Below the pieces are notes generated by a model. That model did not search any database, was not told the origin of the DNA, and worked only from the letters and a program-made list of their open reading frames with translations. Both the position numbers and the translations under genes were made by a program. DNA of 64,000 bases from assembly GCF_011405515.1 (NCBI RefSeq), contig NZ_AP022671.1, forward strand, positions 1,798,001 through 1,862,000. The letters are read 5' to 3'. How positions within the stretch are numbered: position 1 is the stretch's first letter; every line of letters starts with the position of its first letter. Shown here piece by piece: positions 6,370 through 57,565 of this stretch. The stretch is from Nitrospira sp. KM1. Its GTDB lineage: Bacteria; Nitrospirota; Nitrospiria; Nitrospirales; Nitrospiraceae.

Positions 6370-7008
6370 TCACCGGCTCGAAGAGGATGAGGCCGTCAGA
6401 TCCACTCCCGCCAGGTCGCGGTCAAAATCCATCAGCACCTGGCGAACGGCCTGCGTCAGTCCGTCCGCCAATGCCTCCGGAGATGCCGCAGGCATCGGAA
6501 CCTCTTTGCGATAAATGCGCCGAAATACGATGCCCCGGTCATGGAGGCCATCAAGGAGATGCAGTTCAATCCCGAACACCGCTTTCGGTGAACCCCCGAT
6601 GCGGTAGTCACCATAAAACTCCACCACGCTCCCGTCCAGCAGATGCGTTGGTTCAACATGATTGGACCCGACAAGCACATAGTGGAACCGCCCGCTCGCG
6701 GAGAGCCAGTCATGGAACTGCTCCGTCAGTAATGCGCCCGGAGGGACGAACCATTCGTCGTAGAAATCATTTTCGTATTGGAGTTCCGACACGCGATACA
6801 CCATCGCTCTGCCGGCGAACAGCGGCGATATACGAAATTTCCCGATTTTGAGCACGACTCCGGTGTCCGCTCCGACGCCGCGCGCTTCCGAAGTGACCTG
6901 CAAGACGAACGACTTCTTCTCCACGTAGGTCTTGCTGAGATTCACGCACGCGCCCAGCGTGATACAGAGGAGAAGACACACACCGGCCGCATGGCGTCGG
7001 ATGGTCAT
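6370..7008 (-). CDS. ABC-type transport auxiliary lipoprotein (PqiC-like)
   Basis: 212 residues with a lipoprotein signal (CITLGAC, Cys21). The body matches the ABC_trans_aux/PqiC pattern: KSFVLQV early, then VVLKIGKFRISPLFAGRAMV (family feature: 'fRvaPpFdgr.lvYR'), a conserved WFVPPGALLTEQFHDWL, and a late strand-helix unit. Proteins of this family dock at the outer membrane and work with MCE proteins in lipid transport. Its start overlaps the stop of the MCE gene (ATGA), showing translational coupling. A run of serines closes the protein. Confidence 0.88.
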   Translation of the reverse strand: MTIRRHAAGVCLLLCITLGACVNLSKTYVEKKSFVLQVTSEARGVGADTGVVLKIGKFRISPLFAGRAMVYRVSELQYENDFYDEWFVPPGALLTEQFHDWLSASGRFHYVLVGSNHVEPTHLLDGSVVEFYGDYRIGGSPKAVFGIELHLLDGLHDRGIVFRRIYRKEVPMPAASPEALADGLTQAVRQVLMDFDRDLAGVDLTASSSSSR

Positions 7009-8864: not shown

Positions 8865-8871
8865 GATCGAC

Positions 8872-10008: not shown

Positions 10009-10126
10009 CGGAAGGCTGGTCCCCGGGGGTCCCGTGGGGGTCGATTGTACGAGAGAAATCTCCTGAGATTCAACAGCCTTAGGACGGGCAGGCCTGCTCT
10101 CGCTGCTGCAATGACAAGCAGATCAG

Positions 10127-10897
10127 CTAGATACCTGCATACCATTCATAACCTTGATCTTCCCAATAGCCTCCTTTTCCTCCTCCGATGGGTTCAAACG
10201 TATCGACCACCACGATCTTGGCAACATACTTCGCGTGCTTGTATCCGAGCTGACGCTCGACCCGGAGTCGCAACGGAGCGCCGTGTGCCACGTCGAGGGA
10301 CCGTCCATTCAGGTCATATGCCAAGATCGTCTGAGGGTGAAAGCAATCCGCCAGGGCCATGCTTTCATAGTAGGAAATCCCTTGGTCATCGATGTCGGCA
10401 CAATGAAACATCACATACCGTGCGTTGGAGCGCGGTCCCGCCGACCGCAGCAGGTCGCCCAACGGCACGCCGGTCCATTTGCCGATCGCGCTCCAGCCTT
10501 CGACGCAATCATGCCGGGTGATTTGAGTGCGCGCCGGCATCGCCTTTAGTGCGACCAGCGACCATGCGTGAGGGCGATCGACCAAGCCGCCGATCTCCAC
10601 CGTCCATTTAGAAAAATTCTGTCTCATATGTCCGGCATATTCGGCTGTCCCCGGGTCCGTGTTCCCATTGGCTGGAAATACGCTGGAGATGTCCGCCTCT
10701 GTATATTCCTTGGCCAAGGCATCCGCCGGCGTGATGATTCCCTGCACCAGACCGGTCAAGTGTTCCGTGGCATGCATGATCTTGGGAAACCAGTCGCTCG
10801 CGGTGAGATTGTCGCACCCTGAAACGGCGAGCGCTCCCGCCGCCCCCGCAGCGCCTTTCAAGAATTCCCTGCGCTTGATTGGCCGCTCAGACTTCAT
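10127..10897 (-). CDS. Tat-exported molybdopterin oxidoreductase (sulfite oxidase / MsrP-like fold)
   Basis: 256 residues. The N-terminus carries a twin-arginine signal (RREFLKGAAGAAGALAVSGC), and its final Cys28 could also make it a Tat lipoprotein. The Oxidored_molyb domain covers about residues 85-245: WTVEIGGLVDRPHAWSL, the cofactor cysteine in TRHDCVEGWSAIGKWTGVPL, FHCADIDDQGISYYES, and HGAPLRLRVERQLGYKHAKY. It acts in the periplasm with a molybdopterin cofactor. Its start overlaps the end of the cytochrome b gene by 11 bp, so the cytochrome is the probable membrane electron partner, as in YedYZ/MsrPQ-like pairs. The substrate is unknown. Confidence 0.9.
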   Translation of the reverse strand: MKSERPIKRREFLKGAAGAAGALAVSGCDNLTASDWFPKIMHATEHLTGLVQGIITPADALAKEYTEADISSVFPANGNTDPGTAEYAGHMRQNFSKWTVEIGGLVDRPHAWSLVALKAMPARTQITRHDCVEGWSAIGKWTGVPLGDLLRSAGPRSNARYVMFHCADIDDQGISYYESMALADCFHPQTILAYDLNGRSLDVAHGAPLRLRVERQLGYKHAKYVAKIVVVDTFEPIGGGKGGYWEDQGYEWYAGI

Positions 10898-11783
10898 GTC
10901 GCGCTCCTTGTTCGGTCTTGATCATGAACCAGCCGGTGATCATCGATCGAACATTGTTGAAAAATCCCGAGATGATAACCTGCGTGATATGCACGAGGAT
11001 GAATCCCACGAAGCTGAAACAGGCCAAGAAATGAATCGTGCGAGCAGCTTGCCTCCCGCCGAACATCGTAAGCAGCCAGGGGAAGGCCGCATCGACGGTG
11101 GGCGACATGGTGAGGCCGGTCAACACGATCAACGGAGCCAACAGGAATATGACTGCCACGTAGGCGATTTTCTGCAAAACATTGTAGTGTTTGGCCTCTT
11201 CTACCCTGGGGTGTCTCAAGACCAGATGATCTTTGAGCGCTTGTCCGATTGTGCGAAGATCTCGACCGGTGGGAAGCAGATCCCGCGTGAAGTGCCTGCC
11301 GATGATGGCATACGCTGTGAAGATCAACCCATTGATCACGAACACCCATGCGAACAGCAGATGCCATTGCCGTCCCATTGCCAGCCATCTGGGCCCTGGA
11401 AGGGTCGCCCAGGCGGGAAACGCCCGGCCGCTATGATCCGAGTATCCGAGCACCCCGGTCGTATCGAATTGGAACCCCAAAACGGTCGTGATGCCCCGTA
11501 CCTCGCCGTTGTTTCCCCGTACCGGGAGAATCGATAACAACGGACGTTCTCGATCCGATCGATCACCCCAGTAGAGAGCCGGATGCGCGTTGAAGATTTG
11601 CAGCCCGCTCATGATCAGAATGGAAAGGCAAACGACATTGAGCCAATGGCCGATCCGTACCGGAAGCGCGTGACGATAGACTTGCAGCTGGGCAGAGGTT
11701 CTCATGGAGGAAGACTGTCCCGCATGATCAAGATGTTCACTCGAACCGCGGTCAGCGGGCTTTGCAGATCTTGGCGGATTCAT
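10887..11783 (-). CDS. Cytochrome b561-type membrane subunit partnering the molybdoenzyme
   Basis: 298 residues with four main hydrophobic helices and histidines placed as in the cytochrome b/b6 family of hydrogenase and thiosulfate-reductase subunits: VRIGHWLNVVCLSILIMSG, RQWHLLFAWVFVINGLIFT, and IHFLACFSFVGFILVHITQV. It should pass electrons between the quinone pool and the periplasmic molybdoenzyme encoded next. The ATG at 11783 has GAGGTCAAC in front; an internal ATG at 11705 (MRTSAQLQVYRHALP) would remove 26 hydrophilic residues and is the main alternative. A periplasmic loop between helices 1 and 2 (about 75 residues) is longer than in small cytochrome b561 proteins. Confidence 0.88.
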   Translation of the reverse strand: MNPPRSAKPADRGSSEHLDHAGQSSSMRTSAQLQVYRHALPVRIGHWLNVVCLSILIMSGLQIFNAHPALYWGDRSDRERPLLSILPVRGNNGEVRGITTVLGFQFDTTGVLGYSDHSGRAFPAWATLPGPRWLAMGRQWHLLFAWVFVINGLIFTAYAIIGRHFTRDLLPTGRDLRTIGQALKDHLVLRHPRVEEAKHYNVLQKIAYVAVIFLLAPLIVLTGLTMSPTVDAAFPWLLTMFGGRQAARTIHFLACFSFVGFILVHITQVIISGFFNNVRSMITGWFMIKTEQGARHEV

Positions 11784-15189: not shown

Positions 15190-16227
15190 TCAATAGGAGG
15201 AATTGGACCCGACTTTCCCCCTGAAAAGCCGGTGCAGATAAACTTGATAGATCACGAGAAGAGGAAAAGCGACCATGAACCACTGTAAGCCGATCTGGAG
15301 ACCGTATGATCCTGCTATGGCATTAGTGACCGTCAAACTATAAGACGGGTCGGTCGTCGCGATCAAAATGTTCGGATAGGTACCCCATGCAATACCGGTA
15401 AGCATGAACAGAATCAGCGCGCTTGAGGCTGAGAATGCGGCAGCCTCCTGCTCCGGTTTTCTCAGGAATATGGTGGCGGCCACGGCGCACACCCCGGCAA
15501 GAGGGAAAAAGAATCCGGCAGGATGTTGCTCGTAGTTCAGGTGGAATGACGGCCGGACGAGTGCGATCGCCGCCATGACTAGCGCGATGAAGGCGGCAGA
15601 AACCCAACTCGCGGCCGCGGCCATACGTCTGGCCCGCCGGCGCAATTCTCCATCGGTTTTCATCGCCAGATAACTAGCGCCGTGCATACCCAGTATGGCC
15701 AGGCTGGTCGCGGCGGTCAGGAGGGTGAACCAATCGAGGATACCGGGGTTTGGACCTGTGAGGAAATCAGTCCAGAGTGCCACAAAGAAATAGCCGTCCC
15801 GATTGAGCGGCACCCCGCGGATCAAATTCCCCAGCGCTGCACCGAATACAAGGGCCAGCATCGTACTGGAGGCCATGAGCGCCAGGTCCCACAATTGCCG
15901 CCAGACGGGATGATCCAGATGACCGCGCAATTCAAGCGCCAGTCCCCGTGCGATCAGCAGCCACAGCACGATGATCAGTGCCAAGTAAAATCCGCTGAAG
16001 CCGGCAGCATAGGCCTTCGGAAATGCAAAAAACAGCGTTCCTCCGGCCCCGATCAGCCAAACCTCATTGCCCGTCCACACCGGCCCGATGGCGGTGAGTG
16101 CCGCCCGCCGCTCAGACTCCGTCCGCGCCACGAATGGATAGATGAAGCCAACGCCGAAATCATACCCATCGAGTACGATGTACATCGCGAGCATGAAGGT
16201 CACGGCGATGTACCAGAATGTTTCCAT
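15190..16227 (-). CDS. cydB: Cytochrome bd-type quinol oxidase subunit II
   Basis: 345 residues, the normal CydB length, with about eight to nine membrane helices. The start METFWYIAVTFMLAMYIVLD is followed by GYDFGVGFIYPFV, the family's quinol-side motif, and later GPVWTGNEVWLIGAGGTLFF and the penultimate-helix motif GTYPNILIATTDPSYSLTVT. It pairs with CydA in the inner membrane to reduce oxygen with quinol electrons. AGGGGG precedes the ATG. It follows cydA by 9 bp. No small CydX frame was found in the 29 bp between its stop and the repeat. Confidence 0.96.
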   Translation of the reverse strand: METFWYIAVTFMLAMYIVLDGYDFGVGFIYPFVARTESERRAALTAIGPVWTGNEVWLIGAGGTLFFAFPKAYAAGFSGFYLALIIVLWLLIARGLALELRGHLDHPVWRQLWDLALMASSTMLALVFGAALGNLIRGVPLNRDGYFFVALWTDFLTGPNPGILDWFTLLTAATSLAILGMHGASYLAMKTDGELRRRARRMAAAASWVSAAFIALVMAAIALVRPSFHLNYEQHPAGFFFPLAGVCAVAATIFLRKPEQEAAAFSASSALILFMLTGIAWGTYPNILIATTDPSYSLTVTNAIAGSYGLQIGLQWFMVAFPLLVIYQVYLHRLFRGKVGSNSSY

Positions 16228-16236
16228 GTGCCCCCT

Positions 16237-17601
16237 TTAGGCGTGTGAGCCCGATGGTTCCGGGACTGCCGGTGTGTGGGGTGGCTCTGTCGGTCCATGG
16301 CGGATGGTTTCCGCGACCAGGAACAAGAAGAGCAATCCGAGCACGAGATAGATTCCAAGAAATCCGAGCAGCGTAAACAACGCATTACCCGAATGCACAA
16401 GAGGCGATGCGCCTTCTGCGGTCCGCAGCAAACCATAGACCAGCCAGGGCTGACGTCCAAGCTCTGCGGTCATCCACCCGGCAGTCGTGGCAATGTAGGG
16501 AAAAGGTACGGCCAGCATCAGTGCCCACAACAGCCACGTGGAGGTAAACAGGCGCCCGCTCAGGAGCCAGAGCAGGGCAAGACCCATAATACCGATGAGG
16601 ATCGTCCCGAGGCCTGCCATGATGTGGTAGGAGTAATACAACAGCGGAAGATTGTCCGGCCACAACTCCCGTGGAAACGCGTCGAGCCCTTTGACTTGAG
16701 CATATAGGTCCTCGTAGACGAGGAAACTCAAGGCGTCGGGTATGGTGAGTGGGTTGTCGATCGTCATGGTTTCGACGTTCGGCTGCCCTACCAAGGTCAT
16801 ACCGGCGCCTCGTTCGGTCTTGAACAACCCCTCGAATGCAGCACCTTTGACCGGCTGATGTTCAAACACCTGACGGGCATTTTCGTGTCCGGTTGGAAAT
16901 GCCATCAGCACCGTCGCGAGACTTCCAACCATGACGCCCGTCTTGACGAACGTTTTGGCATATTCGTGATACTGCCCCGAAAGGAGGTAAAACGCGCCAC
17001 ACGCCGTCACGACAAACGCGCCGGTCACCAGGGCCGCCGTCATATTGTGAGCGAATTGCCAGAAGAGCCAGGGATTGGTAAGCAGTCCCCAGAGGCTGTT
17101 CACGAACAAGCGCCCGTCATCAGCCACGGAGTAGGCCACAGGGTGCTGCATCCAGGCATTGGTCGCGAGAATGAAGTAGCCGGACAACCATGAACCGAGA
17201 AAAAGCATGACCGTTGCAAACCAGAGCATCTTCCGGCTGAAACGGGGGTCGCCGAACAGCAAAATCCCCAGGAACGACGACTCCAGAAAAAACGCAAACA
17301 GTCCTTCCATGGCCAGTGTCTGGCCGATGACCCCTCCGGCGAAATTCGAAAACTTTGCCCAATTCGTTCCGAACTGAAACTCCAATGGGATCCCGGTCAC
17401 CACGCCGAAGGCGAAGCTCAGGGCAAAGATCTTCGTCCAAAATCTTGAGACCCGGTGGAAGTGGTCATCACCCGTCGCAAGCGCTCTGGTTCGGAAATAC
17501 ACCAAGAGCAGCGCCAGCCCCATCGTCAATTGCGGGAAAAGATAGTGAAATGACGCGGTGGCCGCGAACTGCAGACGGTCGTACATCAACGCACTGCTCA
17601 T
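16237..17601 (-). CDS. cydA: Cytochrome bd-type quinol oxidase subunit I
   Basis: 454 residues. The b595-ligand histidine is at residue 19 (ATASFHYLFPQLTMG), the acidic pair lies in AMEGLFAFFLESSFLG, and GRQPW is present in the sequence MTAELGRQPWLVYG. The Q-loop keeps the quinol-binding Lys and Glu (HQPVKGAAFEGLFKTE) and is of the short type, as in cyanide-insensitive-like oxidases, rather than the long E. coli-like loop. The ATG has AAGGAAT upstream. It reduces oxygen to water in the inner membrane without pumping protons. It forms a two-gene operon with cydB. Confidence 0.97.
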   Translation of the reverse strand: MSSALMYDRLQFAATASFHYLFPQLTMGLALLLVYFRTRALATGDDHFHRVSRFWTKIFALSFAFGVVTGIPLEFQFGTNWAKFSNFAGGVIGQTLAMEGLFAFFLESSFLGILLFGDPRFSRKMLWFATVMLFLGSWLSGYFILATNAWMQHPVAYSVADDGRLFVNSLWGLLTNPWLFWQFAHNMTAALVTGAFVVTACGAFYLLSGQYHEYAKTFVKTGVMVGSLATVLMAFPTGHENARQVFEHQPVKGAAFEGLFKTERGAGMTLVGQPNVETMTIDNPLTIPDALSFLVYEDLYAQVKGLDAFPRELWPDNLPLLYYSYHIMAGLGTILIGIMGLALLWLLSGRLFTSTWLLWALMLAVPFPYIATTAGWMTAELGRQPWLVYGLLRTAEGASPLVHSGNALFTLLGFLGIYLVLGLLFLFLVAETIRHGPTEPPHTPAVPEPSGSHA

Positions 17602-17721
17602 GTATTCCTTGCCTTGGCCCCTGCCGGCTTACTACGAACAGAGGCACGACATTCGCCTCGTAGCGGATGCCGGACGGACTCGACGGCTGATCAGAAGTCG
17701 CTGTCGATGAGACGGGTCATG

Positions 17722-18261
17722 CTATTGGCCAAGTTCACCCTTGACCTCGGATGGTACAAATGGAATGTAGTTGGCATCGACCAGCTCTTCCCACACTCCA
17801 TCGTGATCGGACTGTCGCCCCCATCCTCTTACATATACCATGTTCAGTACAGGTTCCTTGCCAGGCGCCAGACCGGCGACACGGCCGACGACGGTCATGT
17901 CGACCCAATGCTGGCGCGCGCTCCGAAAGGCATCCTGACTGCCCACGACGATCCAATACCACCCGGCTTCGGGATCGTTCACGCTGGGAGGAAGTTGTGG
18001 TCGATAGTCCTGGTCGAGGGGTCTGTTTTTCACGTGTAACCAGAGGGCTCCGTCCCTGTGTTCCTCCTCCAGAAGAACCGCTCCCATGATCACCAGCCGA
18101 TTGCGGTAAAGGTCTGGAGTCGTTTGCAGCGAGACGAGCGTGACGTTCGGTACGGCATCCCGGAGGTACTTTCTCGGGACGGGACTGCATCCGATGGCCA
18201 CACAGAGACACACCAGCAAGGCGTAGCCCGGCACACGGTTGCCTTGTCGATCCATTCTCAT
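17722..18261 (-). CDS. slp: Slp-family outer-membrane lipoprotein
   Basis: 179 residues from the ATG at 18261, which overlaps the previous stop (ATGA) and has AGGGAGCCC upstream. Signal and lipobox: ALLVCLCVAIGC, Cys25. The mature protein matches the Slp pattern: a start KYLRDAVPNVTLVSLQTTPD, then YRNRLVIMGAVLLEEEHRDG, a WLHVKNRPLD strand, and VGRVAGLAPGKEPVLNMVYV. In enterobacteria Slp is a starvation- and acid-linked outer-membrane lipoprotein; the role here is unknown. An upstream extension would add 44 arginine-rich residues and is unlikely. Confidence 0.85.
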   Translation of the reverse strand: MRMDRQGNRVPGYALLVCLCVAIGCSPVPRKYLRDAVPNVTLVSLQTTPDLYRNRLVIMGAVLLEEEHRDGALWLHVKNRPLDQDYRPQLPPSVNDPEAGWYWIVVGSQDAFRSARQHWVDMTVVGRVAGLAPGKEPVLNMVYVRGWGRQSDHDGVWEELVDANYIPFVPSEVKGELGQ

Positions 18262-18833
18262 GGGCTCCCTGGTTGCAACACGCCGGCGGTCCGGACCTTG
18301 TTCATGAATATCGCGATGCATTCTCTGATGCCTCCCTCGATCAAGATTCCAGTCTTCATCCAGTCTCTCGTCTGCCGACGGTCGATTTCGCACGAAGTCT
18401 CGAAGTTACCGGCGGCATCATGCCCCGTCACATGAAAGTCCACATCGAGTTGAAAATGCTGGTCCTGAGCTCCCACGTATTCAAGATAGAATTGTTTGAT
18501 GGTCCCGGACACGACCCGAGCGGCACTCGATTGCACGGTATAGCCGGCAAAAGTCAACTCGTCTTTTACGGCGTTCGTAAAAAATACGGCGATGTCCTGT
18601 GACAGAAACAGCGCTTCCGAATCCGATCCGGAGGACTCCACCTCCTTCCGTTTCATGAGCCCCGTGGGATGACCCGCGTACACAAACGTATCGACCTGGA
18701 CTTCTCCGCTCCCCCTTACCGAAGTGGATGGTTGATAGTTGAGGTACAGAATGCGGGGGCAGCCAGCGCTTAACAGGGCCGCCATGATCAACGAAGGAAT
18801 CGCCCATCGGCGATGGATCGTATCGAGACGCAT
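18258..18833 (-). CDS. Putative lipoprotein co-transcribed with slp (YajG-like)
   Basis: 191 residues. Signal peptide with lipobox LSAGC (Cys25). The mature region has the layout of YajG-type lipoproteins: an early strand (QVDTFVYAG), a central helix with AVKDELTFAGYTVQSSA, then the strands VVSGTIKQFYLEYVGAQDQH and FQLDVDFHVTGHDAAGNFET, and a late helix. It probably sits in the outer membrane with its partner Slp, whose start codon overlaps its stop. Function unknown. Confidence 0.75.
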   Translation of the reverse strand: MRLDTIHRRWAIPSLIMAALLSAGCPRILYLNYQPSTSVRGSGEVQVDTFVYAGHPTGLMKRKEVESSGSDSEALFLSQDIAVFFTNAVKDELTFAGYTVQSSAARVVSGTIKQFYLEYVGAQDQHFQLDVDFHVTGHDAAGNFETSCEIDRRQTRDWMKTGILIEGGIRECIAIFMNKVRTAGVLQPGSP

Positions 18834-19152
18834 CTAACACCCCTTTGGATACCGGAATGTTGCCGATAGCAACCGCATGGGCGCGCAGAGCCTACGAAGA
18901 AGGGCCTCGTCTGTCAATAGCTTAGGAGTCCAGGCGTGCAGACCAACTGCATCAGGTCGTGCGTACCAGATCGATGGCGGCGAGCATACCTCCTGGGACG
19001 TAACCGCACGGGCACCTCTCAGACTGCCGACGAAACGGCAGATGCTGAACGGTTAGGCACGACAATGGAGCGTAAGGAAAGGATGGGGACGAGGGTGGAA
19101 CCTCACGACACTGGCGAGGTTGGAGTGGGAAGAGAAGATATGCGCTGAAGGA
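18834..19152. other. 319-bp stretch without a gene; holds a hairpin
   Basis: No convincing coding frame on either strand. A perfect hairpin CTGCCG-acgaaa-CGGCAG lies at 19024-19041, and AACCTC/GAGGTT flank 19097-19121. Either could end transcription leaving the gene at 19153-19605 or regulate the lipoprotein pair on the other side. Confidence 0.5.
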
Positions 19153-47562: not shown

Positions 47563-49017
47563 ATGGTTAGCCGCTCCCGCCGATCAGGCCTTCTGCTTCT
47601 CCTCACCACTGTTATCATCCTTTGGGCGCTCCTTTCCGTTTCTCCTGCTGGCGCCGCATCGCGTGGTGCGAGTCCGGCAAAAGCCGTCCCTGGCGACGTA
47701 TCGATCGAGGGCGAGTACTGGGCTTTGATCATCGGCATCAATGACTATCAATCGGCCCCCAAATTGAAGACCGCCGTCGCCGACGCGAGCGGCATACGCC
47801 AGGTGCTGGTGGATCGGTACGGATTCAAGCCCGAGAAGATCAAAATGCTGCTCAATGGAGACGCGACTCGAAGCCGCATCGAAGGGGCGTTCGTGAAGAT
47901 GGCCCGGGAGGCCGCACCGTCCGACAGTGTGCTGGTCTACTACGCCGGCCACGGGCAGAACAGCGACGATAACCAACTCGCCTGGTGGGTTCCGGTGGAG
48001 GGAAATCTGGAGGAACCGGGAACATGGATTCTGGACGCGGCAATCCGAAACTACGTCGCAGCCATGCGCGCCCGCCATGTCTATGTGATCGCCGATTCCT
48101 GTTTCAGCGGCAATCTGTTCGCGCAATCCCGGGCGCTCGTCAACCCCGTCGCCGATAAGTACTACGCCAAACTCTACGCCAAACGGTCTCGCTGGGGCCT
48201 CACCTCAGGAAGCAACGAGCCGGTCGCCGATCAAGGCAAGGACGGGCACAGCGTCTTCGCTTATCACCTCATCACGTTCCTGAAAGACAACGACGAGCCG
48301 TATCTCGTCCCTAGCCGGATTGCCGACCATGTCATTCCGCTCGTCGCACGGAATGCCGAACAGATGCCGAGAAGCCAGCCCCTTCAAGGGGCAAACGACG
48401 AAGGCGGACAGTTCGTCCTGCAGCTGGCATCGGCCGCACGCGGCATCGAGGATCAGGGCAAAAAAGCCGAGGAAGCGGTCCGCCAGCAGCGTGACAAAGC
48501 GCAGGAAGAATTCAAGAAGGAATTGGAACGCATGGCCGAGGAACGGCGCCGCCTCGAAACCGATGCCAAAGAAAAGCTGGAACTGGAGCGCGCTCGCCTG
48601 ATCGAACTCGAACGCCAACTTGAGAAGCAGCGCCGGGAAGAAGCGGACGTCAAACGGCAGCTCGAAGACGAACATCGTCAGCGTGTCGATGCCGAACGGC
48701 AGGCTGCCGAAGCCAAAAAATCTGGCGAGGCCGCACAGCAGGCCGCGAAGCTGAAGGCGGCGGAAGGCCAGCGCCAGGCTGAAGACGACACGCGAAAGAA
48801 ACTCGCCGAAGAAAAGAAGCAACGAGAGGCGCTCGAACGCCAACTGGCGGATCAGCGTCAGCGAGAGACCGACACGCGCCGTGCACTCGAACAAGAACAG
48901 GCGCGACGGCGTGAGGCGGAACGGATCGCGAAAGACGCCCCGTCGAAGGGCGAATCGGCCGAGCCGCAGTATAAACCGGCGAAGAGCGAGCGAGCACCGT
49001 TCGTGGGCGGCTTTTAG
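47563..49017 (+). CDS. Exported caspase-like protease (C14) with a long coiled coil
   Basis: 484 residues. Signal peptide (LLLLLTTVIILWALLSVSPA). Peptidase C14 domain at about 50-300: YWALIIGINDYQSAPKLKTA, catalytic His130 in VLVYYAGHG and Cys180 in VYVIADSCFSG, LTSGSNEPVADQGKDGHSVF. From about 305 to 470 it is an uninterrupted charged coiled coil (Lys/Glu/Gln/Arg). Active-site residues are intact. Bacterial caspase-like proteases mostly cleave after Arg or Lys; here the domain is likely periplasmic. The next gene encodes an outer-membrane barrel, 68 bp downstream, so they may form a unit. GAGGG precedes the start. Confidence 0.9.
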   Translation: MVSRSRRSGLLLLLTTVIILWALLSVSPAGAASRGASPAKAVPGDVSIEGEYWALIIGINDYQSAPKLKTAVADASGIRQVLVDRYGFKPEKIKMLLNGDATRSRIEGAFVKMAREAAPSDSVLVYYAGHGQNSDDNQLAWWVPVEGNLEEPGTWILDAAIRNYVAAMRARHVYVIADSCFSGNLFAQSRALVNPVADKYYAKLYAKRSRWGLTSGSNEPVADQGKDGHSVFAYHLITFLKDNDEPYLVPSRIADHVIPLVARNAEQMPRSQPLQGANDEGGQFVLQLASAARGIEDQGKKAEEAVRQQRDKAQEEFKKELERMAEERRRLETDAKEKLELERARLIELERQLEKQRREEADVKRQLEDEHRQRVDAERQAAEAKKSGEAAQQAAKLKAAEGQRQAEDDTRKKLAEEKKQREALERQLADQRQRETDTRRALEQEQARRREAERIAKDAPSKGESAEPQYKPAKSERAPFVGGF

Positions 49018-49085
49018 GTCACCGGCAAGCCGAGTGACCGGCATATCAGCGTACGACATCACCCAACCATTTCAGGAGGAATCGC

Positions 49086-49967
49086 ATGAGCAAGCGGGCT
49101 GTGAGACTGGGCATTCTGTGCGGTGTGATGGCACTGACCGGCTTCACGTCTGAACCGGCGTGGACAGCTGACAAGATACCGGCCGACTCGCCGTCGACCG
49201 ACCAGCCGGAGAAACGAGGAATCTTGGGCGATCGGTTTTCGTTGGACGCCGGGATGAAATTTTGGGTCGCAAAGTGGCAGCCGGCGGGATTCGTCGGCGG
49301 CATCAACTCCACCAGAACCTCGGACACGACGGCCATGATGGGTCCCAGCATCACCGGTACCGTCCGGTTACGGAACGACGAATGGTGGAACGCCCTCTCC
49401 GTTAACTTTACGTGGCTTCAGGCTGGGGGATTCGACTTCAGCCCTTTCGGATTTAACAACGGGGGAAACGGTCCGCCAATCGACCAGACCTCTGCGATCC
49501 GTCGTGATTACTCCATCGTCGGTGCGCTCTCAATCTGGCGAGGCTTCGGCGTATTCGCCGGATACTACAATATGCAACAGCGGTTCAGCAGCTCGTATCC
49601 CGGAGCCGTCCAGGGACCGGCTCATGAGAGCGTCTACATCAGCGGACCTCTGATCGGCTTGTTCGGATCGGGAACCGTATCCGGTCCATTGAAGGCCTAT
49701 GGAAATCTCGCGGTTGGATTCTACGATGAGAAGTCGAACAACAACCCGAGTGGAACGGTGCAGACCACGGCCAAGGGTGTTCAGGGTTATTCTGCCGAGT
49801 TCGGCTTGTCCCTGGACGGACCCAGTCTGAAGGTCGGCAGCATCGGCTCCATCGGCTCTGCGATCCAGATGGGCTTCCGTGCTCAGGTCATCAACGTCAA
49901 TACCGGACAGACAGCCAATAACGACGTCACGTGGGGACCGACCTTTCAGGTCGTGGCGCGATTCTAA
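49086..49967 (+). CDS. Outer-membrane beta-barrel protein
   Basis: 293 residues, with AGGAGG 7 bp upstream. Signal peptide LGILCGVMALTGFTSEPAWT. The mature part is an alternating hydrophobic/polar strand pattern: SLDAGMKFWVAKWQPAGFVG, GTVRLRNDEWWNALSVNFTW, SIVGALSIWRGFGVFAGYYN, GNLAVGFYDEKSNNNPS-type turns, ending in a Phe-terminated strand (TFQVVARF), the outer-membrane insertion signal. About 10-12 strands can be counted. Transport or structural role unknown. It follows the caspase-like gene, perhaps in one operon. Confidence 0.82.
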   Translation: MSKRAVRLGILCGVMALTGFTSEPAWTADKIPADSPSTDQPEKRGILGDRFSLDAGMKFWVAKWQPAGFVGGINSTRTSDTTAMMGPSITGTVRLRNDEWWNALSVNFTWLQAGGFDFSPFGFNNGGNGPPIDQTSAIRRDYSIVGALSIWRGFGVFAGYYNMQQRFSSSYPGAVQGPAHESVYISGPLIGLFGSGTVSGPLKAYGNLAVGFYDEKSNNNPSGTVQTTAKGVQGYSAEFGLSLDGPSLKVGSIGSIGSAIQMGFRAQVINVNTGQTANNDVTWGPTFQVVARF

Positions 49968-49987
49968 AACGCGAGGTAATTGGAATG

Positions 49988-50035
49988 GGGTGGCGACGTC
50001 CGGTCAGTTTCTGTGCGCCGACCGGAACGCCACCC
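49988..50035. terminator. Bidirectional two-step hairpin
   Basis: GGGTGGCG...CGCCACCC (8 bp) encloses TCCGGTC...GACCGGA (7 bp). It lies between and overlaps the convergent ends of the barrel gene (stop 49967) and the M48 gene (stop 50004), so it can act on both transcripts. No long U-run. Confidence 0.6.
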
Positions 50036-51728
50036 AACTTTCGACAGCCTGTTTGTCGTCGAATCTGAAGATGATGCCGACACGTTCATCCCGATAGGGA
50101 CTTTGATACAGGTAGTAGCGACCCCGTCCCGACACGAAAACCGAGTTCGGAGAACCATAGGCCCGCTCGACTACGTTCACGGTATCCCCGCGTCGAACGC
50201 CCTTGATCGTCCGGCCTTCGGCTCCCTGCCGTCCGCTCAGAAGATACGTTGAGCTTCGCATCGATCCGCTGCCTTTGATGATCGCCGTGGCACGAACCGT
50301 TCCCCGTTGTCTGGAGACAACGGTCAAGGCAGGCCGCAACTCGTCGTCCGCATCCCACCGAGCCAGGGTCCGCGTGTCTTTGGGATTCATGAATTCACCT
50401 TCCCCGAGATCGGCGATCTTCATGTCCCCGACCTGCTCGGGAAGAGCGAGCGTTCGAGGTTCGGCAACGTGAAGACTTGCTCGACCCGCCGGCGCATTGA
50501 TGCGCGCGAGGTTCTCGACACCGGCGCCGTTCCCGCTATTCGCAGCCAGTCCAAATTCCCGTTTGGCCGATTCATCATCACCTTGATGGGAGAATACGAT
50601 CCCCTTGACGGCATGCGCACGAGCCAGCATCTCGGCGGCGCCCTGGGACTGCGCAAGCAACCGGGCCGCCTCGGCTCTAGAACCGGCCGACTCATAGTCG
50701 CCCAGCAGGTCGAATACACAGGCCAGGTTGAGCAGGGCCATCGCATACGACGGGTTCATGGCGACCGCTTTCTCGAGATGACGCCGGGCCTGCTCCAGCA
50801 AATCGTTCCGACGCCCGCGCCGTTGCTCCGGATCGGCGAACGTCATGCCCCGCTGCCCTTCTCCGGCAAGCCGCGATTCTGAATCGATTTCGAACGGATA
50901 GACGAATCTGTTCTCGGTTTCCGAAAACCATTGCAACGCATCGAGCGCCTCGGCCACCCCGGCGTTATTGAGGATTTCAGGCCCCGGAAACTCAGTGGCG
51001 ATCCGGTCGAAGATCAATCCTGAGCTGGTGTAATCGCCGATCAGCAGCGCATACACCCCCGTCTCAAACAACGGAGCCAATTCGCGGAGCCGCTGTTGGG
51101 CCTCCTTCGCGGTCTCCCGGCGGTGCTTGAGGTGTTCGTAGGCGGGAAGCCCGGGATCGAACCGGTAGTGCGTGTAGATGGCATCGAACACCGGAGTCGC
51201 CACCGAAAGGGGTTGATACCCTGCCAGGAAACTGTAGAACCCTCCGAAGTAGTCCGCCTCCGCTTCCAACCGCCTCCGTTCCTTGGCGGATTCGATCCGG
51301 GGCACGTCTTCCCCGCTCTCTCCGCCTCCTAACGCCGTTTGGCGGTGCGCAAAGGCGCGGCCAAATCCTTCCGCCCAGCGATGGTTGCGGTAAAAATGTG
51401 CGAGTTCATGACCGAGGATGAGCGCCAACCCGTTGGCTTGTTCTTTGGGAAGCGACGACTGCAGCAGGTCGTAGAATTCCTCCTCGAGATAGACGGCATG
51501 CCGGCCGGGGAGAAACTGCGCGACGTCGAAGGTGGTGGCTTTGCCTTTGACGATGCGGAATTCCGGCGGAGTGCGAGGATCGTTGACCGACCGGACGAGT
51601 TGATCGAATACTTGCCGGCTGACGCGAACCTTCTGATTGGAAGCGGGGAGGAATTCTTCAGCGCAGGCGAGTGAGGACCATGTCAGAACGAGCGTTCCGA
51701 TCCACCATATCGCACATCGCGACGGCAT
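50004..51728 (-). CDS. Exported M48-family metalloprotease with TPR-like region
   Basis: 574 residues from the ATG at 51728. Signal peptide (WWIGTLVLTWSSLACA). Zinc motif HELAH at residues 107-111 (LALILGHELAHFYRNH) and the third ligand in EAEADYFGGF (about 155). A helical TPR-like region spans about 220-440 (RHLEKAVAMNPSYAMALLNL; YESAGSRAEAARLLAQSQGA), then a C-terminal domain of about 130 residues (GDMKIADLGEGEFMNPKDTR; GVRRGDTVNVVERAYGSPNS). The N-terminal half resembles BepA/YfgC-like periplasmic proteases that assist outer-membrane protein assembly. It converges on the barrel gene. Confidence 0.88.
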   Translation of the reverse strand: MPSRCAIWWIGTLVLTWSSLACAEEFLPASNQKVRVSRQVFDQLVRSVNDPRTPPEFRIVKGKATTFDVAQFLPGRHAVYLEEEFYDLLQSSLPKEQANGLALILGHELAHFYRNHRWAEGFGRAFAHRQTALGGGESGEDVPRIESAKERRRLEAEADYFGGFYSFLAGYQPLSVATPVFDAIYTHYRFDPGLPAYEHLKHRRETAKEAQQRLRELAPLFETGVYALLIGDYTSSGLIFDRIATEFPGPEILNNAGVAEALDALQWFSETENRFVYPFEIDSESRLAGEGQRGMTFADPEQRRGRRNDLLEQARRHLEKAVAMNPSYAMALLNLACVFDLLGDYESAGSRAEAARLLAQSQGAAEMLARAHAVKGIVFSHQGDDESAKREFGLAANSGNGAGVENLARINAPAGRASLHVAEPRTLALPEQVGDMKIADLGEGEFMNPKDTRTLARWDADDELRPALTVVSRQRGTVRATAIIKGSGSMRSSTYLLSGRQGAEGRTIKGVRRGDTVNVVERAYGSPNSVFVSGRGRYYLYQSPYRDERVGIIFRFDDKQAVESWVAFRSAHRN

Positions 51729-51789
51729 GTGGCCCCCGTGGAATCCGGCAGCCACACGTCGTCGTGTGTCGCCTGCGCGGACGCAGAAA

Positions 51790-52407
51790 TCAACGCGGCT
51801 GCTCGACGCGAATCGAATCAACGGGAAGGTAGCCGACTTTGACGATCTCCCCTTGTGCGGTCTTCATCACGTATGGCACGACGACCTTTTGTCCCGGCGT
51901 ATAGGGCGTCTCGCTGTGAAAGGTGACCCGATCCCCTTCGACTGTCCAGGTGCCGTCCTTCAACACCACCACATCATCTGGAAGATTGATCGATTCAATG
52001 GAACGAATCTGCCGGTCCAGCTGCTCGGATTCCGCGGTCAACCTGGCGAGTTCATCGGATACGGGGTGCGCCGCTCCGGCTGAATCTCCTCCATCTTTCC
52101 CTGCGAACCCGAATCCCCGCTCTTCCGATTGGCCGAGTTGATTGCGCAAACTCGCCACTTGCACGGCGGTGGATTCCTTTTTCGCGGCGAGGTCGGCCTT
52201 CGCCTGGCCGGGACTGGAAATGGTGGTGCCCTGAGCCAACTGGACACTCGCCTGACAGGTCCAAGTCTGAGCAGAAAATCCCTGGGGATTCCCGGGCATG
52301 TTGCCGGACACCCCGCATCCCATGGAGGTTGGGCAACCTCCGACTCCGAGTAAGGCCAACGCAGGAAACGGAAGCCACCATCGGGAGAAGTGACGAGTGG
52401 ACGCCAT
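51790..52407 (-). CDS. Putative lipoprotein with two cysteines and a coiled segment
   Basis: 205 residues from the ATG at 52407, with GAGGA upstream. Signal and lipobox GVGGC (Cys25). Near the start of the mature part are CGVSGN and WTCQASVQ. The middle is a coiled coil (DELARLTAESEQLDRQIRSI). The end is a compact beta pattern (DVVVLKDGTWTVEGDRVTFH; YTPGQKVVVPYVMKTAQGEI). No known family. It lies 61 bp upstream of the M48 gene on the same strand and 126 bp downstream of the large caspase-like gene, so probably one transcription unit. Confidence 0.72.
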   Translation of the reverse strand: MASTRHFSRWWLPFPALALLGVGGCPTSMGCGVSGNMPGNPQGFSAQTWTCQASVQLAQGTTISSPGQAKADLAAKKESTAVQVASLRNQLGQSEERGFGFAGKDGGDSAGAAHPVSDELARLTAESEQLDRQIRSIESINLPDDVVVLKDGTWTVEGDRVTFHSETPYTPGQKVVVPYVMKTAQGEIVKVGYLPVDSIRVEQPR

Positions 52408-52533
52408 AGTGTCCTCACGGTTGAATGTAGACCGGAGAAACGGGTGTCGATCTTTAAAGAAAGTCCCCCACCGAGTCAAGCTCCCATTTGCCGCGCGCAG
52501 TATAACAAGAGCCGGTTTCAACCTGCCTGGCAA

Positions 52534-54891
52534 TCAAGGCACAGCGCCGTCCCCCGCATTTGCCGGCAGGCTGCGGCGAAACTGCCGGGTGATAGACCAA
52601 TCGGACTGTCCACGTGTCTCCTGCCCCGATCCGGCAACCGCTTCTGATTCAATGAGTTGCCTCGCCTGTTGAATCTCATGCGCCGTCGTCAGCAGGATAA
52701 AGGTGTCTACTCCGAACGGCGCATGGACCCTCATAACTCCACTGTCCCCCAAGTCAATCATCGCCAGGTGCTCGGGGGATTTTTTTTCGAACCCTTTGGG
52801 GGGAATCAGGTTTTCGTATTCTTTGCTCGCATCGTTGGGAAACAACAGGGTCGATCGTCCTGATTGGTCGATCACAAAGACATAGACGTATCGCTGCTGG
52901 ATTCCCCAGGTTTGTTGAATGTTTTTGATGGTTTCACGATCGGACTCGAGCATCAGACGGTATGCGCCTTCACGCAACGTACCGGAGCCGGCAGCCGGCG
53001 TGCTGGCGGCCGGACGGAACGTCAGTTCATAGGGAAATCGCCGATCATCGGGACTGCTCTTGATAGAGAGCCACTGATGGATGCGGGCCAGTCCTGCCAG
53101 ACAGCTCTGCAAACCTCCGTGTGCGCAATCCATAGGTTTGTCATTGAAGGTGCCCCACAGGGTATGCACCGGAAGCGGCATCGGAGAATCAGCCTTTTCT
53201 GACGCCGCGGACCTAATAGGGTTTCGAAGCGCCCAGGCATAGTGCACGTGCCCGTCGCTCAAGCGACCCAACAACACGTATTGCGCTTCGTCCGAGTTCT
53301 TGACCAGTCGAATGGGATTCGGAATTGTCTCGATCGACGCCGTAAGGATCCGTTGCAATGCGGCGGAAGGAGGAATGTTCATGTAGAGCCGGATCGGGGC
53401 CCTCTCTTTCTGAAGTCGTTCGGCAATCTGCTTGGCCGTCGGCGCCGCACCGACCTTTTGTGTCCGGCCGTCAGGACCATGCAACAGCCACTCCGAGCCA
53501 TTCCAGGTCAAGAGATGAGTGGGTGATTGTTCGGTCGGTTCCACAACCCAAGTCATACCGATCTGCAATAGATGATCATGAAGCCCTGCGGCGAGGTGCT
53601 CCGCCTCATGCAGGTTTTTGACCGCAGGGGGAAGCCAAATACGGAGAGCCGCCGGGTCGGCATTTCCCTTGCGGCTGACCTCAAATTCATCTCCCGGCTT
53701 GAGCCGATTCCAGTCTCCCTGAACAACAGCAGCCTGACTCCTTGCGAGATTTCGCACGTTCGCTATGCGTAGCCGTACCGCCCCGGCCGCAGAGACTAAC
53801 TCCGTCCCGTTCGTCAGACCGATGGCACTCCCTCCCTGCACATCGACGTCATGAGGACCGTAGGCGCGGACGACATTGATTCGAAGTTTCGGCACATCGC
53901 CGTCCGGATCACCACCGAACAGCGGCGCTCGTTTCCGGGCTTCCGCCCCTGCGACCGCTGGATCCTGCTGCAGACCTTCGGCTTTCAACTTGGCTGTGAC
54001 CCGTCTCATGATCCGGTCCGCGGTCGCATTCACCGCCGTCTCGTTCAGGGCTTCAGTCAATGCAAGCGTGAAGGCCCCGTGCCATTCTGTTTGATCTCCC
54101 GCACGATGAAGCGCTTCCTTGGCCTGCTGATCTTCCTGTGTCGCGGAAATGATGAGCGCGCCCTCCCGCCGTTCAGGCTCCTGACCGGAGGGATGGGCCG
54201 GCGGCTCCTCACCGATCAACACCGCCACGTCGCGGTCATCCTCCTCCAGAAATCGCACTTGGGCCGCAGTGGGCACCGCCCCGCGTGAAATTGAACCGCT
54301 ATGGCAACTGTCGAAAATGGCCGTGAGCTTCGCACCTCGATCCAGCACCCGGGTAAACAGTCGATCCCACTCCTTGTCTCGAATGTCGATAATGGTCCGG
54401 TCCGCCTGTGCCCGATTGGCATCGGCGGGAACAATCGTTTCGTCTTTCCCGTCGAGTTCTGTCGAATTGGAATTTCGAATCCGGGATCCGTGACCCGCAT
54501 AAAAAAAGATGCTGAGGTCGCCAGGCTGGGCGGAATCGATGAGATGACGCTTGAACTGTTCGAGAATCTCGGCCCGAGTGGCCTGTTCATCGGTGAGGAG
54601 GATGACGTCCTGATGTCGAAAGCCGAACCGGCGGATCAACAACTCCCGGATGGCAGTGGCATCGTTGACCGATCCACGAAGGTTGGGCCAAGTGCGGCGG
54701 CCGCCGGATGATGAACGAGAAGGCCCGTCGGCCGCATGTCCTCCGTCGTAATGGTCGATGCCGACCAAGAGGGCCCGCCGATTTTCGGCATCTGATGGAT
54801 GCGGCAAGACCAGCCACGTCGCGAAAATGCAGGCCGCAGCGGCGAGGATCGTTCGCATTGCCGTGAAACGTGTCCTGCGTGAACTGCTCAT
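52534..54891 (-). CDS. Exported caspase-like protease (C14) with a DUF4384-type C-terminal domain
   Basis: 785 residues. Signal-like segment (MRTILAAAACIFATWLVLP). Caspase-like domain about 36-330: RALLVGIDHYDGG, NDATAIRELLIRRFGFRHQD, catalytic His134 in FFYAGHGSRIR and Cys196 in IFDSCHSGS. A middle region of unclear fold (about 330-640) follows. The last 150 residues resemble DUF4384 (YRLMLESDRETIKNIQQTWG, YVYVFVIDQSGRSTLLFPND). DUF4384 is widely found with bacterial caspase-like domains. Active-site residues are intact. No clear ribosome site at 54891; an ATG at 54858 starts the signal peptide directly and is a fair alternative. Confidence 0.9.
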   Translation of the reverse strand: MSSSRRTRFTAMRTILAAAACIFATWLVLPHPSDAENRRALLVGIDHYDGGHAADGPSRSSSGGRRTWPNLRGSVNDATAIRELLIRRFGFRHQDVILLTDEQATRAEILEQFKRHLIDSAQPGDLSIFFYAGHGSRIRNSNSTELDGKDETIVPADANRAQADRTIIDIRDKEWDRLFTRVLDRGAKLTAIFDSCHSGSISRGAVPTAAQVRFLEEDDRDVAVLIGEEPPAHPSGQEPERREGALIISATQEDQQAKEALHRAGDQTEWHGAFTLALTEALNETAVNATADRIMRRVTAKLKAEGLQQDPAVAGAEARKRAPLFGGDPDGDVPKLRINVVRAYGPHDVDVQGGSAIGLTNGTELVSAAGAVRLRIANVRNLARSQAAVVQGDWNRLKPGDEFEVSRKGNADPAALRIWLPPAVKNLHEAEHLAAGLHDHLLQIGMTWVVEPTEQSPTHLLTWNGSEWLLHGPDGRTQKVGAAPTAKQIAERLQKERAPIRLYMNIPPSAALQRILTASIETIPNPIRLVKNSDEAQYVLLGRLSDGHVHYAWALRNPIRSAASEKADSPMPLPVHTLWGTFNDKPMDCAHGGLQSCLAGLARIHQWLSIKSSPDDRRFPYELTFRPAASTPAAGSGTLREGAYRLMLESDRETIKNIQQTWGIQQRYVYVFVIDQSGRSTLLFPNDASKEYENLIPPKGFEKKSPEHLAMIDLGDSGVMRVHAPFGVDTFILLTTAHEIQQARQLIESEAVAGSGQETRGQSDWSITRQFRRSLPANAGDGAVP

Positions 54892-55005
54892 GGAGCGGAG
54901 GGCGCCGGGTGTCTTAAGTCTTGTACGGTTTGATACACTGGGCCGCGCCTGTTAGGGGTTCCTTGCCGCACGTGTTTCGCATGTGCCCGCGGCGGCCTTG
55001 GGACA

Positions 55006-56640
55006 GTGAGCCCGCAAACCGGTTCGCGATGCATGATGTCTTCATGGCTTGATCCATCCGTCCTGCTCAAAAAGCTCATCGAATCGCTTCGGCATCGGCT
55101 CAAACCGTTGGAGCCCATTATAGCGCCGGTCGCCCAAATCTGGCGAAACCTCCCTTCATTCGTACAGCTCCTGCTCAAGAGCATCGCGATCGGCCTTGGG
55201 GCCGCGGTTATCCTGCACATCTGTCGGCCATACATTCCGGGGGTCGTCCCGGCAGAGCGGTCGGCAACGGATTGGGCGATTAACTTCTGGAAAGACCGTT
55301 CGGTCGAATCGCCGGCCTTATCGGAGCGGTTCGTCTTTGTCGATATCGACGAAGCAACCTACCAACAATGGGGAGAGCAGCTGTTCGTCCCACGGGACAA
55401 ACTGCTCGCCCTGATCCGATTTGCCGTCGTGGCACAGGCCAAGCTGCTCGTCGTGGACACGGAATTGACCAAACGTGTCGCGCTTGTGCCGGCACAGACC
55501 GGAGGACTTTCCCCTCGAGAGGCCGGCGGGGACGCAGATGAACTCTTGAAGAACTATCTTGGCTCTTACAGCCGCCTGCTCCCGCAAGGAGACGGGGCTG
55601 AAAGCCGCGTACCGGTTATTTTTGTCCGGTCTATCGGACAGCCGCTGCTGCAGCCGGACGCGGACGGACGAATTCCTGACGGCACCCAGCACGAGACCGC
55701 CGCCTCGATTTCGGAAGAGCGTCCCTCTGAATTTCTTGAGAGCACGTTGGCAAACTCCATCGTGTTGCATTGGGCATCGGCCTTGATCGAGCGCGATGAT
55801 GACGGCGTGGTCCGCGATTGGCGTTTATTCGAACCAACCTGCATCAAGGGAACACCAAACGTGACCCCTTCGATCGCGCTCCTCGCCTGGGCTCTGGTCA
55901 GGCAACCGGAATTGGATGGAGGGGCGTTTGCCGTCACCCGGTTTCGATCGGGACTGCGAGAACGATTTGCTCCCCCCGACACGTTTTGCACCCGGATGGC
56001 ATCCGCTGGGATTCCCGATCCAAAGGCGCGACCGTCGAAGGCCTGGAGATTGATCGATCGGTCGTTGGGGAAACCGGTGGTCTTGAGTCTCAATCCCGAC
56101 GATCTCGAACATCGCGTCTTCTATAAATTTCTCCCCGATTCGGTGCAGGCGGAACTGTTTTCACGGGTCCGCGCCTCCATCATTACCGACCCTCCTGTTG
56201 GCCGCCCGTTGAGTCCCGATTGGCTCAAAGGAAAGATCGTGGTGATTGGGTCAAGTTACGGCGCGGCCCACGACCGCCATGTCACCCCTTTGGGTGAAAT
56301 GCCGGGCGGCTTGGTCGTGATCAATGAAATCAACGCCCTTCTTGAATACGGCCAGATCCGTGAACCCGACGCCCGGATCCGTTGGACGGTGCTGATTGCC
56401 CTGATCATGGCCTTCAGCCTTTCCTTTTCCTACTTTACGAAGTCGTGGGGCACGCGGGTGGCCCGGCTCATCATCAACGTCCTCTTCATCCCTTTGAGTC
56501 TCTGGCTTTTTCAATATGGATGGTGGTTAGATATTGTCTTCCCGTTGATGGTGCTCCAGGCGTACGGTCTCCTGGTCGATTTTCAAGTGGAGCCGCAGAC
56601 GATCAAACGTAAGGCGGCAAGCCAGGCATCGCCGCGATAA
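55006..56640 (+). CDS. CHASE2-domain membrane protein without an output domain
   Basis: 544 residues. One N-terminal membrane helix (about 55-75, SIAIGLGAAVILHICRPY), then a CHASE2 extracytoplasmic sensor (about 85-440: AERSATDWAINFWKDRSV; FVFVDIDEATYQQWGEQLFV; AQAKLLVVDTELTKRV; GKIVVIGSSYGAAHDRHVTP, EMPGGLVVINEINALLEYGQ, all typical). Three C-terminal helices (WTVLIALIMAFSLSFSYF; IINVLFIPLSLWLF; IVFPLMVLQAYGLL) follow. CHASE2 usually feeds a kinase, cyclase or diguanylate cyclase; here only about 20 residues follow. It is divergent from the large caspase-like gene. The start could also be the ATGs at 55033 or 55036. Confidence 0.88.
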   Translation: MSPQTGSRCMMSSWLDPSVLLKKLIESLRHRLKPLEPIIAPVAQIWRNLPSFVQLLLKSIAIGLGAAVILHICRPYIPGVVPAERSATDWAINFWKDRSVESPALSERFVFVDIDEATYQQWGEQLFVPRDKLLALIRFAVVAQAKLLVVDTELTKRVALVPAQTGGLSPREAGGDADELLKNYLGSYSRLLPQGDGAESRVPVIFVRSIGQPLLQPDADGRIPDGTQHETAASISEERPSEFLESTLANSIVLHWASALIERDDDGVVRDWRLFEPTCIKGTPNVTPSIALLAWALVRQPELDGGAFAVTRFRSGLRERFAPPDTFCTRMASAGIPDPKARPSKAWRLIDRSLGKPVVLSLNPDDLEHRVFYKFLPDSVQAELFSRVRASIITDPPVGRPLSPDWLKGKIVVIGSSYGAAHDRHVTPLGEMPGGLVVINEINALLEYGQIREPDARIRWTVLIALIMAFSLSFSYFTKSWGTRVARLIINVLFIPLSLWLFQYGWWLDIVFPLMVLQAYGLLVDFQVEPQTIKRKAASQASPR

Positions 56641-56659
56641 CCCGGCAGTTGAGGCCTCC

Positions 56660-57565
56660 TTGAACCTTCTCGCCCGTCTTCTGTTCGTATGGATTGCGAT
56701 CTGCAGTATCAACCTGGCCCACGGCGGTCCGTCCGACGGTACAGGTCCGGTAGGATATGTTGAACAGCTGGCTGGCAATCTCGACAGCTTCTCTATCGAA
56801 CGGGCAGGACGTACGCTCTCACCGGCGCTCCTCCTTCCTGTCCAAACCGGCGACCGGCTGTCGGTTCGCGGACGAGGAAACATCCTCTCTCTCCAATGCG
56901 GGAATCGTCGCATCCGAGTGACCGAGCTCGAGTCCCCTTTTGTCGTGCCGCCGAATGCGACGCCGCCCGGCTTCCTGTCGCGCCTGGGTGTCCTCCTCCT
57001 CGATGTCGGCGGTCGGTTAACCACGCAGCAGGCCAAGTCGGTGACCAAAGTCGCCACGAGCAGCCGTGGACACGACGAACCGCTTGCAATCCCACTATTG
57101 CAAGGCAGGACGTCCCACCTCGCTTTGCCGGATAAGACGCTCTATGTTGCCTGGGCAGGCGGTTCACCGCCCTATGAGGTGCGGGTGACTTCGGTCAAAT
57201 CAGAATCGCGGCAAATCGCCGCCCTCGGGGGCATCGAGGATCAGCGCGCCATCGTCGCGCTTTCTCACTCGTTGCCGATCGGCTTCGCACAGGTAGAAAT
57301 TATCGATCACGACGGAAGCACCGCGCGGGGACTGTTCGAAGTCATCCCGGCCAAGCGATTGCCGACAGCTGAGGCGGCGTTGAATGACACCGACGTTCCG
57401 GCGTCTCTGAAACAAATATTGTGGATGGATGCCTTGCTGAAAGACAGCCCGGCAGAATGGAGTTTTCAAGCCTATCAGGTCATCTCGCCGTTGGTCCCGG
57501 AATCCCAGCCTGCGCAGGCGCTCCGTGATTGTCTCGAGCGCACCGTGAGCTGTTACGATCGATAG
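56660..57565 (+). CDS. Exported FecR-like protein
   Basis: 301 residues starting at TTG. Signal peptide (LLARLLFVWIAICSINLAHG). Residues 32-115 resemble a free FecR-type domain: GYVEQLAGNLDSFSIERAGR, LLPVQTGDRLSVRGRGNILS, QCGNRRIRVTELESPFVV; this is the 'G.v....G.v.v.r.g' pattern of the family without the cytoplasmic half. The C-terminal half has an Ig-like strand pattern (LPDKTLYVAWAGGSPPYEVR) and helices. It starts 20 bp after the CHASE2 gene and likely belongs to one operon with it. Function unknown. Confidence 0.78.
   Translation: MNLLARLLFVWIAICSINLAHGGPSDGTGPVGYVEQLAGNLDSFSIERAGRTLSPALLLPVQTGDRLSVRGRGNILSLQCGNRRIRVTELESPFVVPPNATPPGFLSRLGVLLLDVGGRLTTQQAKSVTKVATSSRGHDEPLAIPLLQGRTSHLALPDKTLYVAWAGGSPPYEVRVTSVKSESRQIAALGGIEDQRAIVALSHSLPIGFAQVEIIDHDGSTARGLFEVIPAKRLPTAEAALNDTDVPASLKQILWMDALLKDSPAEWSFQAYQVISPLVPESQPAQALRDCLERTVSCYDR

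Follow-up and report, generated by a model that had tools for sequence, protein, structure and literature searches.

A conserved Nitrospira gene cluster pairing caspase-like proteases that carry export signals with a CHASE2 protein lacking an output domain

CHASE2 is known as a sensory domain, and receptors with CHASE2 domains are generally taken to signal through attached cytoplasmic enzymes. In magnetotactic bacteria, the gene for MtxA, an exported protein of about 313 aa with a signal peptide, a beta region, an Ig-like domain (142-226) and C-terminal TPR-like helices, precedes the gene of a CHASE2-adenylate cyclase (PMC4439547; PDB 4Z29), and no protease is reported there. In Campylobacterota, a CHASE2 adenylate cyclase is clustered with an envelope protein bearing a genuine FecR domain, a PDE and a TPR protein (PMC9239204), again with no caspase or CHAT protease reported. 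The BiofilmReg operon of Burkholderia couples an exported FecR/LysM protein to a CHASE2 receptor, but here CHASE2 is part of a histidine kinase with a response regulator, and there is no protease (PMC5192318). A caspase domain is linked to a CHASE2 receptor in the CHASE2-metacaspase fusion of Trichodesmium (PMC2853523, PMC3501461), although this is a single protein with its caspase predicted in the cytoplasm. Finally, among the caspase/STAND conflict systems with EAD and EACC components, which are cytosolic effector systems, one EACC2 variant is fused to CHASE2 (PMC8195603). We describe a locus in which a CHASE2 protein has no output domain, and in which the caspases are encoded by separate genes and carry export signals. 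In the literature searched, in which most subscription papers are not covered, we found no description of output-less CHASE2 with an exported caspase or CHAT protease, and no paper joining CHASE2 with FecR plus caspase, or CHASE2 or FecR with the CHAT domain.

The locus lies in a 64,000-nucleotide stretch (the window) of the 4.5-Mb single-contig genome of Nitrospira sp. KM1 (GCF_011405515.1, contig NZ_AP022671.1, positions 1,798,001 to 1,862,000). A first-pass annotation of the window, made from sequence alone, had described two exported caspase-like proteases with intact His/Cys sites, an M48 protease, a lipoprotein, an outer-membrane barrel, a CHASE2 protein without an output domain and an exported FecR-like protein at 47563-57565. 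This observation was confirmed, with corrections to individual labels given below. The seven ORFs form two groups: casp_cc followed by the barrel gene, and then the M48 gene, the small exported protein gene and caspD, all three on the reverse strand and divergent from CHASE2 and its partner gene.

The first caspase gene, casp_cc (47563-49017, +), encodes a Pfam Peptidase_C14 protein (1.1e-17) with a C-terminal Glu/Lys/Gln/Ala-rich coiled-coil-like tail and an invariant C-terminal RAPFVGGF. It is 73-75% identical to three orthologues, in which H130 and C180 are invariant. Coupled to it is a gene (49086-49967, +) for a probable outer-membrane beta-barrel protein of 293 aa, which is always next to casp_cc in four genomes; the barrel assignment rests only on a signal sequence and a terminal ARF, as no Pfam family matched. 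The second caspase gene, caspD (52534-54891, -), also matches Peptidase_C14 (1.1e-25) and carries a C-terminal DUF4384-like region just below the gathering score (25.1 vs 27 bits). It is 35-52% identical over its full length in four genomes, with H134 and C196 invariant. The dyads of both caspases (GHG...DSC) are thus intact in all orthologues, and both proteins have N-terminal signal sequences; proteolytic activity and cleavage specificity were not assayed. The family of EACC1-associated caspases (NF047832) is not matched, as scores here fall far below its cut-off (84 and 36 vs 140 bits).

Between caspD and the barrel gene lie two further genes on the reverse strand. One (51790-52407, -) encodes a small Cys-rich exported protein with 43-45% identical orthologues in two genomes and a 30% identical, divergent homologue at locus L031. 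Its earlier annotation as a lipoprotein is only possible, as the lipobox is marginal in the window and clear (LVGC) only in the L031 homologue. The other (50004-51821, -) encodes an M48-type zinc protease with TPRs that just passes the Pfam cut-off (20.4 vs 20.3 bits), with its zinc motif (GHELAH...EAEADYFG) conserved in orthologues. Its signal-like sequence appears only if translation starts at an internal ATG, and the likely true start is the ATG near 51728. We would like to note that export throughout this work was judged by hydropathy only and not by a trained predictor. The M48-TPR layout resembles that of BepA, a protease of outer-membrane quality control, although orthology to BepA was not examined. 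One could therefore read the block as an envelope biogenesis or quality-control cluster, in which the M48-TPR protein, the small exported protein and the barrel mature outer-membrane proteins, the caspases are processing enzymes, and CHASE2 and its partner are structural scaffolds rather than sensors. We consider this reading unlikely, because the core that recurs across phyla (see below) lacks the M48, barrel and small-protein genes, and because CHASE2 is otherwise known as a sensory domain.

A 114-bp intergenic region (54892-55005) separates caspD from the divergent CHASE2 gene and is presumed to be a shared promoter region; promoters and regulation were not examined. The CHASE2 protein (55006-56640, +) scores 67 bits (2.3e-18), and its predicted topology is one TM segment (51-74), a periplasmic domain, three further TM segments (460-478, 484-503 and 506-524) and a tail of about 20 aa. 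CHASE2 is the only Pfam family in it and in all 43 relatives, and the cytoplasmic output domain (cyclase, kinase or other) of other CHASE2 receptors is absent. The partner gene (56660-57565, +) begins 19 bp after CHASE2 and encodes a 301-aa protein with a signal sequence.

The first-pass annotation had named a test for its reading, namely whether the DUF4384 caspase, the CHASE2 protein without output and the FecR-like gene co-occur more than expected by chance, with a lack of conserved co-occurrence in other genomes counting against it. We ran this test, and the genes do co-occur. A search of the family (98 genomes) found CHASE2-only orthologues in four genomes besides that of the window: G001, G055, G014 and the same-genus relative G033. 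In neighborhoods of 18-20 kb, the full seven-gene order is present in G001 and G055, five genes are present in G014 (no M48 or small protein), and G033 has CHASE2, partner and caspD on one strand plus a small-protein homologue. The block is syntenic in genomes at 37-79% protein identity, while the flanking genes of the window (DUF4412, PBP-like, GH63) were not found there, so the block behaves as a unit with edges at 47563 and 57565. Family-wide profile searches placed both the partner and caspD in exactly the same five of 96 genomes, adjacent in all five (1/C(96,5)=1.6e-8 per coincidence, ignoring kinship). In contrast, casp_cc was found at full length in four of these five, with partial matches in three other genomes, where no barrel was found alongside. 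The casp_cc, barrel, M48 and small-protein genes are a family-level accessory set and not part of the recurrent core.

To look beyond the family, public genome contigs were scanned for CHASE2 with peptide patterns, which were narrow and found only two loci; one was a CHASE2-only/partner pair in a Thiotrichaceae MAG. A scan of plasmids gave one weak CHASE2 hit. A sample of 398 genomes of the MAG's phylum yielded only two genomes, but in its own order 22 of 43 genomes hold CHASE2-only genes, often several. Maps of 43 loci show CHASE2, the partner and an exported protease as a recurrent trio, with a CHAT-TPR protease in most and a caspase in loci L094, L100, L109 (caspase and CHAT fused) and L115. 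L115 repeats the window's arrangement exactly, with a caspase that also has DUF4384. The partner lies within 1 kb of the CHASE2-only gene in 33 of the 43 loci. Of the 23 loci with at least 3 kb on both sides, 20 have the partner within 1 kb and 18 have a CHAT or C14 protease within 5 kb, against 0/72 and 6/72 control ORFs from the same genomes (Fisher p 1e-17 and 3e-10). The loci are mostly MAG contigs, several of them truncated, the controls are mostly contig starts, ORFs on one contig are not fully independent (the per-contig comparison gives p=3e-5), and the CHAT, C14 and partner profiles were built partly from these loci. CHASE2-partner pairs also occur without a protease nearby (five of the 23 well-flanked loci lack one), and two well-flanked loci (L124 and L125) lack both a detected partner and a protease. 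Nevertheless, a chance neighborhood without functional link is very unlikely, being contradicted by the synteny and co-occurrence results.

On a tree of 43 CHASE2 proteins, the protease type switches about six times: a two-state label (CHAT or C14) needs six changes, and with four labels, well-supported branches alone force four changes for C14. Loci L094 (caspase) and L096 (CHAT) are close kin. Nearly all neighboring proteases have a signal sequence and an intact nucleophile motif. The same trio, or its version with the protease type swapped, recurs in a second phylum, in unrelated sulfur bacteria, which suggests a signaling system that works entirely in the cell envelope.

Our favored explanation, which we hold to be about as likely as not, is a three-component envelope switch: an inner-membrane CHASE2 receptor that exposes its sensory domain to the periplasm and has no cytoplasmic effector, an exported partner with an MtxA-like layout, and an exported clan-CD cysteine protease (caspase-DUF4384 here, CHAT-TPR or other caspases elsewhere). 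As no output domain follows the periplasmic CHASE2 domain, any direct effect must be in the membrane or periplasm. The exported partner encoded next to it is the natural relay, and the exported protease the natural output. Most likely, a periplasmic signal changes the CHASE2 protein, the partner passes the change on, and the protease is released or activated to cleave envelope or surface proteins, so that signal, relay and output would all stay outside the cytoplasm. Exchange of caspase for CHAT with the other two components kept is what one would expect if the output is proteolysis. In the Nitrospira-lineage version, caspD is probably co-transcribed with the small exported protein and the M48-TPR protease, and casp_cc and the barrel next door could be the executing arm, although an envelope cascade of this kind is speculative. 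Our analysis demonstrates the gene content, the intact catalytic residues, the export signals, the missing output domain, the synteny, the co-occurrence and the exchange of protease type, whereas physical contact, direction of control, proteolytic activity, stimulus and substrates are inferred; there is no experiment. The association is well supported, the gating is inferred and no biological role has been assigned. The transcription of caspD and CHASE2 in opposite directions counts against the model. The first-pass interpretation, an envelope-stress proteolysis system sensing periplasmic signals, is partly supported, in that a membrane sensor coupled to an envelope protease is the favored reading, while envelope stress as the stimulus has no direct evidence. 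More tentatively, these loci may represent a widespread, undescribed class of self-contained extracytoplasmic signaling systems in which a CHASE2 receptor without cytoplasmic output drives an exported caspase or CHAT protease through an MtxA-like adaptor, i.e., a caspase-type switch operating in the periplasm or on the cell surface, possibly as a two-caspase cascade in Nitrospira. If confirmed, the system would give a function to output-less CHASE2 proteins and to exported bacterial caspases, and would put caspase-type signaling in the cell envelope of nitrifiers and sulfur bacteria; three adjacent genes and an exchangeable protease also offer a clear genetic handle.

The description of the partner as FecR-like is not supported. 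None of 37 partner proteins (the window protein and 36 relatives) matches Pfam FecR (PF04773) at E 0.1 or any other family convincingly, and a FecR search of the window's own genome does not list it. A profile-profile comparison with genuine FecR proteins (hhalign) gave 74% probability over 51 N-terminal columns only, which leaves a distant relationship undecided. We rejected an anti-sigma role as in FecI/FecR systems, as there is no FecR match, the protein has an N-terminal signal sequence instead of a cytoplasmic anti-sigma domain and is fully exported, and there is no sigma gene among the genes of the block.

MtxA-like is the better description of the partner. In a predicted structure of the window partner, the signal sequence is followed by a beta domain at 28-106, an Ig-like part at 142-231 (Z about 4) and helices at 248-300. 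The model is of low confidence (pLDDT 48), so the shared layout alone does not decide whether the partner is an MtxA-type protein. The conserved W, Y/F and L-x-P-G positions reported for MtxA seem, in our reading of the alignments, to have counterparts. Sequence homology to MtxA was not shown, with 4Z29 not listed in profile searches at E up to 10, a result that leaves this question unsettled as well. Foldseek gave nothing under E 0.001. VIA-align, in which 4Z29 was not among the rows, placed the N-domain (28-106) on 5IX9, a "cell surface anchoring domain", at Z 7.9 over 74 of 76 residues with an rmsd of 3.4, which may reflect only a common arrangement. The structure prediction for caspD was unusable (pLDDT 33). 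The location of the partner gene next to a CHASE2 gene is shared with MtxA.

The partner's domains also occur in other contexts. Its N-terminal domain is fused behind nSTAND1 proteins at three loci: a caspase-nSTAND1 protein in L200, an nSTAND1 protein with a weak C14-profile match in L204, and an nSTAND1 protein in L201. The first two, like the published Trichodesmium fusion, provide a gene-fusion link in favor of our model. They also raise the possibility of a conflict or defense system acting in the envelope, in which the sensor detects an invader or kin signal and the caspase or CHAT protease kills or shields the cell. Caspase, CHAT and nSTAND1 domains are common in conflict systems, the distribution is patchy and multicopy, and conflict systems are enriched in multicellular bacteria (PMC10907252). 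We nevertheless consider this unlikely, as the components are exported, unlike the cytosolic caspase conflict systems, only a generic PADLOC caspase model matches, and no informative PHROG match was found, which also gave no support to a phage origin. A match to the partner's C-terminal domain lies in a VIT-vWA protein next to a CHAT gene in L202.

In several loci, the partner follows a soluble receiver-histidine kinase gene instead of CHASE2, so the partner is not tied only to protease control. In genome G436, a variant locus reads cyclase-like ORF, CHASE2, partner, three small secreted paralogues, ECF sigma factor, probable anti-sigma and caspase, and a detached cytoplasmic output is thus possible in some members. 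These observations, together with the cyclase or kinase output of the known CHASE2/FecR and MtxA modules (PMC9239204, PMC5192318, PMC4439547), allow that CHASE2-only and partner form a receptor whose output is a separate, unlinked or neighboring cytoplasmic enzyme, and that the proteases are merely genes of the regulon it controls. We regard this as the strongest of the alternatives but still doubtful, as no such output gene was recognized in the Nitrospira block or in most maps from the Thiotrichaceae order, and the protease type switches but stays exported. The order to which G436 belongs gave no further CHASE2-only genome. A Gemmatirosa plasmid, on which no CHASE2 was seen, carries a caspD homologue (34% identity, 90% coverage) near two CHAT ORFs.

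The only other CHASE2 protein of the genome containing the window, encoded at positions 8351-11002 of locus L032 (about 3.3636 Mb on contig C1 of that genome), appears from its sequence to be composed of CHASE2, a sigma54 AAA activator and an HTH, i.e., a membrane-bound NtrC-like regulator. The same genome yields 31 genuine FecR (PF04773) matches, unusually many FecR-type systems, of which most lie in one region (C1, 3.81-3.95 Mb), with others elsewhere and one inside the window at 1122-1397. Single ORFs containing two full CHASE2 units in tandem were found at three other loci, L105 (3807-6983), L108 (2964-6101), and L111 (24-5852).

At the loci L200 (1818-4790), L204 (6897-9476), and L201 (4930-7836), proteins with an nSTAND1 NTPase-TM-TPR layout end in the N-terminal domain of the CHASE2 partner; the L200 protein also has a caspase, while the L204 protein has a weak C14 match. 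A Gemmatirosa plasmid (locus L089, 9707-12223) carries a near full-length homologue of caspD, the DUF4384 caspase of the window, close to two CHAT ORFs, and no CHASE2 was seen there. With regard to casp_cc, the coiled-coil caspase at 47563-49017, the orthologues share an invariant C-terminal tail, RAPFVGGF, after a variable linker, which raises the possibility of a recognition peptide. A divergent casp_cc homologue in another member of the family lies in a cluster (locus L061, 9578-18778) with a possible ECF sigma/anti-sigma pair. At locus L068, three small secreted paralogues (6279-7668) are encoded between the CHASE2 partner gene and an ECF sigma factor gene. Lastly, locus L066 contains four VapC/PIN-like ORFs in a row (15797-18895), two of which have the same N-terminal sequence.
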